DNA of 27,136 nt, from positions 1-27,136 of IMG/VR virus record IMGVR_UViG_3300045996_001904; one strand, written 5' to 3'. Below, one piece after another: positions 861-1,230 of this stretch. Numbering within the stretch: position 1 is the first letter of the stretch; each line of letters opens with the position of its first letter. The stretch is from a virus. The position numbers and the translations under genes were made by a program. Below the pieces are notes generated by a model. That model made no database searches. It worked only from the letters and a program-made list of their open reading frames with translations, and was not told where the DNA came from.

Positions 861-1048
861 GGCACAGGCGGCGTGGATGGACACGCAGGCTGGACATTGG
901 GGAATACGGGCAATCCGAGCCTCCATGACGGCGACGCTCCCGAGGCGACGAGTGGGTATCCAGTCCCACGTAGAGACAGGGAGTAAGGCCACTTAGCAGC
1001 CAGTAGAGGCGGGTTAAGCAGCAGGTATCGAGTCCTGCCCTGTGCCCA
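861..1048 (+). ncRNA. Putative structured non-coding RNA with tRNA-like ends
   Basis: This is the longest stretch of the + block without a convincing gene. GGCACAGG (861-868) pairs perfectly with CCTGTGCC (1039-1046). Immediately inside the 3' strand is a hairpin of 5 bp with an 8-nt loop (1021-1025/1034-1038, loop TATCGAGT), placed as a tRNA T-arm is against an acceptor stem. After a 2-nt gap on the 5' side comes GCGT/ACGC (871-874/883-886) with a GG-containing 8-nt loop, like a D-arm. GGCTG (888-892) can pair with CAGCC (997-1001) at anticodon-stem spacing, enclosing 104 nt with further helices: CTCCC/GGGAG (937-941/979-983), GTGGG/CCCAC (952-956/965-969, loop TATCCAGT) and AGGCT/AGCCT (887-891/918-922, an alternative pairing). 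It lacks a standard T-loop (one extra base), a U33 anticodon loop, tmRNA hallmarks and a known riboswitch signature. Function is unknown. Strand is chosen from operon direction. Confidence 0.5.
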
Positions 1049-1065: not shown

Positions 1066-1230
1066 ATGTTTTATCAGGAACAGATCCAGGACGGGGTGCT
1101 GTGCTGGAGGAACAGCCCAGATGGGGCCTGGAAGCCGTTTACGGTCGAGGAACTGACGGAACGGATCAGGCGAATGGAAAAGCGCCTGAACTATATGCTG
1201 AACAAATTCATGAAAGGAGAGGTGGTGTGA
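1066..1230 (+). CDS. Small hypothetical protein (54 aa)
   Basis: The start is the ATG at 1066, because AAGGAGGAGG at 1051-1060 is a near-perfect ribosome site with proper spacing; a GTG at 1042 in frame lies inside the putative RNA stem and has no such site. The product has an aromatic N-terminal half (FYQEQ, CWRNSPDGAWKPF) and an amphipathic C-terminal helix (TVEELTERIRRMEKRLNYMLNKFMK), plausibly a small coiled coil. It is the first gene after the structured RNA, so the RNA could lie in its leader. No family was recognised. Confidence 0.65.
   Translation: MFYQEQIQDGVLCWRNSPDGAWKPFTVEELTERIRRMEKRLNYMLNKFMKGEVV

Follow-up and report, generated by a model that had tools for sequence, protein, structure and literature searches.

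The viral DNA stretch analysed here (an IMG/VR record of 27,136 nucleotides, hereafter the window) contains a tRNA-like RNA element that belongs to a well-supported RNA family, in which an acceptor-like closing stem, a D-arm and a T-arm surround an insert. That the family is real and has the anatomy described we regard as nearly certain. The reading that we favour, with a little better than even confidence, is that of a non-decoding tRNA-like RNA, which would be cut out by tRNA-processing enzymes and whose constant elbow would carry an exchangeable effector insert.

The RNA element in the window folds into a tRNA-like frame

Two small co-directional genes flank the element (Table 1), at which no promoter or terminator was recognised. 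The segment 861–1048 has a minimum free energy (MFE) of −78.6 kcal/mol, better than dinucleotide-shuffled controls (z = −2.35, with 1 of 200 shuffles equally good), and the MFE structure includes the 8-bp closing stem, the D-arm and the T-arm, the last of these stacked on the stem. A preliminary description made from the sequence had proposed these three helices; they are present as described, and homologues keep the same three with compensatory changes. It had also pointed to two look-alike hairpins, with loops TATCCAGT and TATCGAGT, and this likeness is real as well; 7 of 177 members, that of the window included, have a canonical second T-arm within the insert, versus 0.1 expected in shuffles. 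An anticodon-stem-like pairing proposed between 888–892 and 997–1001 is unsupported, being missing from the MFE structure and having no homologue with the same insert for comparison. Folded alone, the insert is no better than shuffled sequence (z = −0.89), and it has no close relative among the collected inserts.

In a relative phage contig that is syntenic across the element region (L002), two small genes take the place of the RNA, and homology breaks off at window position 852 and picks up again at 1049, which marks the element as a discrete cassette. Conserved protein coding across 844–996, a possibility raised together with the RNA proposal, is not borne out, since the homology to L002 is interrupted from 852 to 1049, an interval that two small genes occupy in L002; the 50-aa open reading frame at 844–996 and the frames overlapping it have no PHROG match.

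Table 1 Features of the RNA element and its neighbourhood in the window.
Feature	Position	Strand	Evidence or remark
Upstream small gene, 52 aa	685–843	+	Conserved in syntenic relative L002
Cassette; two small genes in its place in L002	853–1048	+	blastn homology ends at 852, resumes at 1049
tRNA-like RNA element, whole	861–1046	+	Covariance-model match; MFE z = −2.35
Acceptor-like closing stem, 5′ strand (positions −1 and 1–7)	861–868	+	Pairs with 1039–1046
CG linker, positions 8–9	869–870	+	CG or CA in 142/142 B-subfamily elements, under a collection descriptor that permitted C/T then A/G
D-arm GCGTG-GATGGA-CACGC, 5-bp stem, 6-nt loop	871–886	+	D-stem covariation, constant loop
Hypervariable insert replacing anticodon and variable arms, 134 nt	887–1020	+	170 non-redundant inserts family-wide
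Second T-arm-like hairpin within insert, GTGGG-TATCCAGT-CCCAC	952–969	+	In MFE structure; inner T-arms enriched
T-arm GCAGG-TATCGAGT-CCTGC, 8-nt loop	1021–1038	+	Two-sided changes at all 5 pairs
Acceptor-like closing stem, 3′ strand	1039–1046	+	Abuts T-stem directly as in tRNA; covariation
Downstream small gene, 54 aa, ATG at 1066, AAGGAGGAGG just upstream	1066–1230	+	Conserved in L002

The element belongs to a family with a covarying core

Scanning IMG/VR with the T-arm of the window returned contigs repeating the same layout, and further scans with two D-arm variants and one T-arm-only pattern yielded many more loci; two of these exact-pattern scans, with one D-arm variant and with the T-arm alone, gave at least 120 matches each. 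By descriptor, we collected at least 196 elements, comprising 142 of type B, to which the window belongs, and 54 of type A, in which the D-arm reads GGCGGAA..TTAGACGC and resembles a tRNA-Leu D-arm lacking the GGT. As a control for chance, each acceptor was paired with the downstream sequence of other loci: among the D-arm matches listed, the strict closing structure was present in 74 of 118 for type B (63%) and 43 of 91 for type A (47%), compared to 1.3% and 1.5%, respectively, of the mismatched pairs.

A covariance model trained without the window (R1) matches it at 862–1046 with 55 bits (E = 4.3e-9) and also detects type A members, at 22–31 bits. The window shares the features that define the R1 family, namely a closing stem of at least 7 bp, a 5-bp D-arm with a GAWGGA-type loop, and a T-arm with an 8-nt TATCNAG-type loop abutting the stem. 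A joint MAFFT alignment of types A and B misregistered the acceptor and was left out of the analysis.

Among 54 distinct B-type homologues, 99.5% of cells are paired, a percentage biased upward because the collection criteria demanded the acceptor pairs, and all 12 variable pairs, that is, all 7 core acceptor pairs and all 5 T-stem pairs, show two-sided changes, a variety of pair types that is free of this bias. The covariation score of the 54 sequences is 0.594, versus 0.125 when shuffled and at most 0.10 with slid partners. In this set the search pattern left the D-stem no freedom to vary; in homologues chosen by the T-arm only, it covaries at 4 of 5 pairs (GCGTG/CACGC, GCACG/CGTGC, GCGCT/AGCGC, GCGTT/AACGC and others). 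Acceptor, D- and T-stems thus covary strongly, and the preliminary idea of a tRNA-mimic RNA with an acceptor, D-arm and T-arm layout was right.

Conservation in the family extends to the two loops, the D-loop GAWGGA (GAAGGA or GATGGA in 134 of 142 B elements) and the 8-nt T-loop UAUCAAGC. The pair −1:73, which is G861:C1046 in the window, covaries and is formed in 104 of 142 B elements versus 42 when shuffled, and beyond it the excess of pairing over shuffles decays out to −4:76. Closing stems often extend into the flanks, for example CATTTTGC/GCAAAATG in L247 and TAAACT/AGTTTA in L164, runs of a kind that ordinary tRNA precursors avoid.

The conserved core is related to the upper half of tRNA

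The family core is arranged as in tRNA, with the T-stem abutting the closing stem and 2 nt between the closing stem and the D-stem, and an A or T stands directly before the T-stem in 99% of elements. Two elements (L036 and L146) share their insert at 98.6% and differ in the loop, one having the 8-nt TATCGAGT and the other the canonical 7-nt TTCGAAT, indicating that the 8-nt and the canonical T-loop can replace one another. Elements are also found near tRNA genes, 23 of 179 (about 13%) lying within 1 kb of one versus 5.9% for random positions; in all 23 the strand is that of the nearby tRNA, and 7 elements lie 6–14 nt from a tRNA gene, within tRNA operons.

In members of 69 nt, a hairpin of just 3 bp occupies the site of the anticodon arm, so the family cannot in general read codons. 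CCA is encoded at the tRNA position in 5 of 44 distinct type A and 4 of 137 distinct type B elements, and the discriminator base varies among elements; together with the frequent extension of the closing stem, this makes charging by one synthetase unlikely.

Other tRNA-like sequences were also observed. In Pseudanabaena phage Pan3 (L310, ON968454, 4058–4123), the insert itself matches Rfam tRNA with 34.9 bits, one tRNA-like unit being nested in another. Roseobacter phage DSS3P8 (L428, KT870145) has a tRNA-like sequence at 1445–1530 with TATCAAGC as its 8-nt T-loop, which looks decoding (possible TTG anticodon) and is missed by ARAGORN; it lies within a 2.2-kb annotation-free stretch that also has an ARAGORN tmRNA call. 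An annotation-free stretch of Xanthomonas phage Rb1 (L429, PQ569993, 1582–2258) has ARAGORN calls of a tmRNA and a tRNA-Phe. At 2576–2668 of L092, ARAGORN calls a tRNA-Tyr, yet the start of this sequence (AGCAAGGTGGCGGAATGTAAACGC...) resembles that of a further family member, placed immediately after the first one. The family also shows that tRNA finders overlook tRNA-like genes, to which the 8-nt T-loop probably contributes.

Inserts are diverse and exchanged between phages

At least 170 non-redundant inserts were obtained, ranging from about 20 to 180 nt. Their structure is weakly above that of shuffles on average (mean z about −0.34), so a folded effector is not proven. GNRA-type CCGAAAGG hairpins are present in 9 inserts versus a shuffled maximum of 7. 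At the insert ends, the 170 inserts show no conserved anticodon-arm sequence.

Comparisons between related loci reveal that flanks and inserts do not share one history. Within one phage clade, the orthologous site is occupied by different inserts: L090 and L163 have flanks that are 90% and 89% identical and inserts that are unrelated, sharing no more of the element than its first 25 nt, whereas L108 and L163, with flanks 83% and 74% identical, have an insert in common at 98%; this discordance indicates that inserts or whole elements have been exchanged. Insert-sharing pairs show some compensatory changes inside the insert; however, the unrelated pair L235/L225 scores similarly, and we therefore make no claim of compensatory change within inserts. 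A search for further members of one insert family found no additional distinct allele, and a search for a partner protein among the neighbour genes found none.

The family is enriched in phages

The family is phage-enriched, rare in bacterial genomes and common in environmental viruses. Phages mostly have one copy, sometimes two in tandem with different inserts. The element is present in six isolates, Caulobacter phage DMCA, Pseudanabaena phage Pan3, Acidovorax phage AP1, Komagataeibacter phages phiKX1 and phiKX2, and Alcaligenes phage QDWS595, and in all six records no feature of its own is annotated for it.

Host chromosomes were considered as the main home of the family and rejected: about 85,000 species genomes contained 17 D-arm matches, of which 1 (L304) is a plausible element and most others are readable as the coding string VAELDA, and the R1 model matched in 3 of 398 genomes of one phylum. 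A plasmid copy was seen in Roseomonas mucosa plasmid p1-AD2 (L430, 2891–3027), near a gene for a glycosyl hydrolase 108 (phage-endolysin-like). Two further observations were made: a viral contig that carries a tRNA-like element also has an Rfam Burkholderiales-2 RNA (L214, 1542–1615), and a Marinicella MAG (L298) has direct repeats (GTTGCGGTTTTAAGCCGAGTTCTTTTGAAGTAAAAT) around 1342–1540 that resemble a CRISPR array.

Possible function and competing explanations

According to the reading that we favour, the constant part is the upper half of a tRNA, in which the GAWGGA and UAUCAAGC loops presumably dock to form the tRNA elbow, and the lower half is replaced by an insert that varies from phage to phage and is swapped through recombination. 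As the window element sits between co-directional genes and has no recognisable promoter or terminator, tRNA-processing enzymes probably excise it from a polycistronic transcript. The RNA would be released by RNase P, acting at the 5′ end, and by tRNA 3′ nucleases, a route through the tRNA enzymes that we consider reasonably probable, and the tRNA-like shape would stabilise the released molecule. The insert would serve as an effector domain, a natural tRNA-scaffold cargo diversified by an arms race with factors of the host or of competing phages; for the insert being an exchangeable effector under diversifying selection, we see a chance slightly below even.

Several points count against this explanation, namely the rare encoded CCA, the weak insert structure and the location of only about 13% of elements near tRNA genes; in addition, the extended closing stem, unlike mature tRNA ends, could hinder normal RNase P cleavage. 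More broadly, and only tentatively, we suggest that phages possess a widespread class of RNAs, made by way of host tRNA processing, whose constant tRNA elbow would present an effector diversified by an arms race, for example RNAs that inhibit host defences or rival phages. If true, the combination of a conserved tRNA elbow and an exchangeable insert would give viruses a new means of making and diversifying functional RNAs.

The main rival to the effector-insert model would place the function in the constant elbow, as a decoy or sponge for host tRNA-elbow binders (defence nucleases, RNase P, T-loop modification enzymes), with the insert being drifting filler that removes codon reading. Conservation confined to the elbow loops and stems is consistent with such a decoy, as are inserts that vary freely, are weakly structured on average and go down to about 20 nt, but mere filler fits poorly with inserts kept 98% identical despite flanks diverged to 74–87%, while neighbours carry others, and with the recurrence of CCGAAAGG hairpins and inner T-arms in inserts, so that we regard the decoy as unlikely. 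The isolates make both the effector and the decoy readings directly testable. An antisense regulator directed against phage or host mRNAs from within a tRNA scaffold would suit an insert that is exchangeable and weakly structured within a stable-looking frame, and several inserts have 12–14 nt of exact complementarity inside their own locus; across 181 elements, however, matches of this kind within the own locus do not exceed chance (mean excess of 0.22 nt, with 5.5% at p ≤ 0.05), and we consider this role improbable.

The preliminary description had also entertained an intron-bearing or decayed tRNA and a leader for the genes that follow, and neither idea fared well. In favour of a decaying or intron-bearing decoding tRNA are subfamily A, with a D-arm that we take to be tRNA-Leu-like and sometimes a canonical T-loop and encoded CCA, and the Rfam tRNA match inside the Pan3 insert. 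This origin is nevertheless very improbable given the strong purifying covariation, the at least 170 different inserts, their ends without conserved anticodon-arm sequence, the shortest members, which at 69 nt are too short for an anticodon arm, and the absence of any tRNA call by ARAGORN or Rfam for the element in the window. Even less probable is a cis-acting leader or riboswitch for downstream genes: although a ribosome-binding site and a gene follow immediately after the window element, no downstream family recurs (at most 3 of 150 neighbour proteins share a PHROG), orientation to the flanking genes is mixed, with no more than 91 of 156 downstream genes on the strand of the element, and some elements belong to tRNA operons.

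Comparison with known RNA families and systems

Rfam searches of the window, at the gathering threshold and at E ≤ 10, gave no family match, and those of the homologue loci gave no family either, the sole tRNA match on an element being the inner one of Pan3. Neither ARAGORN nor Rfam calls a tRNA (RF00005) on the window element or a tmRNA in the window, and tRNA-Sec (RF01852) matches, present in 10 phages, all lie elsewhere and none on elements. We found no description of such an RNA family in the open-licence full-text literature.

The 8-bp acceptor, the 5-bp T-stem and the D-stem of the 5-bp class recall what we take to be the proportions of bacterial tRNA-Sec; compared to tRNA-Sec and tRNA-Leu, the phage elements have no anticodon arm, and their discriminator and acceptor bases are not conserved. 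Stable RNA C of phage T4, or species 1 (rnaC, NC_000866, 70908–71046), resembles the family in being a small phage RNA that is encoded in a tRNA cluster and carries a canonical T-arm close to its 3′ end, but it has a canonical 7-nt T-loop and no family-type D-arm that we could recognise, and R1 has no match in T4 70000–73000, RNA C included. The likeness to tmRNA (SsrA) lies in an upper half of tRNA that is kept and a lower half that is replaced by another domain; in contrast to tmRNA, the family has an insert too short and variable for an mRNA-like domain, and its D-arm has a full 5-bp stem.

YrlA is a noncoding RNA with a tRNA-like module unable to decode, suggested to be a tRNA mimic, and in this it resembles the phage family. 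A possible role of its tRNA-like domain as a competitive inhibitor has been mentioned (PMC7790460). Its constant and variable parts are, however, unlike those of the phage tRNA-like family, the YrlA model (RF02553) matches no element, which leaves the Y RNA-like membership considered earlier unsupported, and no Ro/Rsr gene was recognised among the best 25 neighbour families. With regard to processing, the architecture of the elements is predicted to be compatible with that of substrates of RNase P and the CCA-adding enzyme; an encoded CCA is rare, and the closing stem often exceeds 7 bp.

In the engineered tRNA scaffold, a cargo is placed at the anticodon position of a tRNA frame. Such a scaffold has been used for recombinant RNA (PMC3753655). 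The element, a member of no family that we found, works like a tRNA mimic or a natural tRNA scaffold, differing from the engineered one in that the phage elements are natural, viral and equipped with non-canonical loops.
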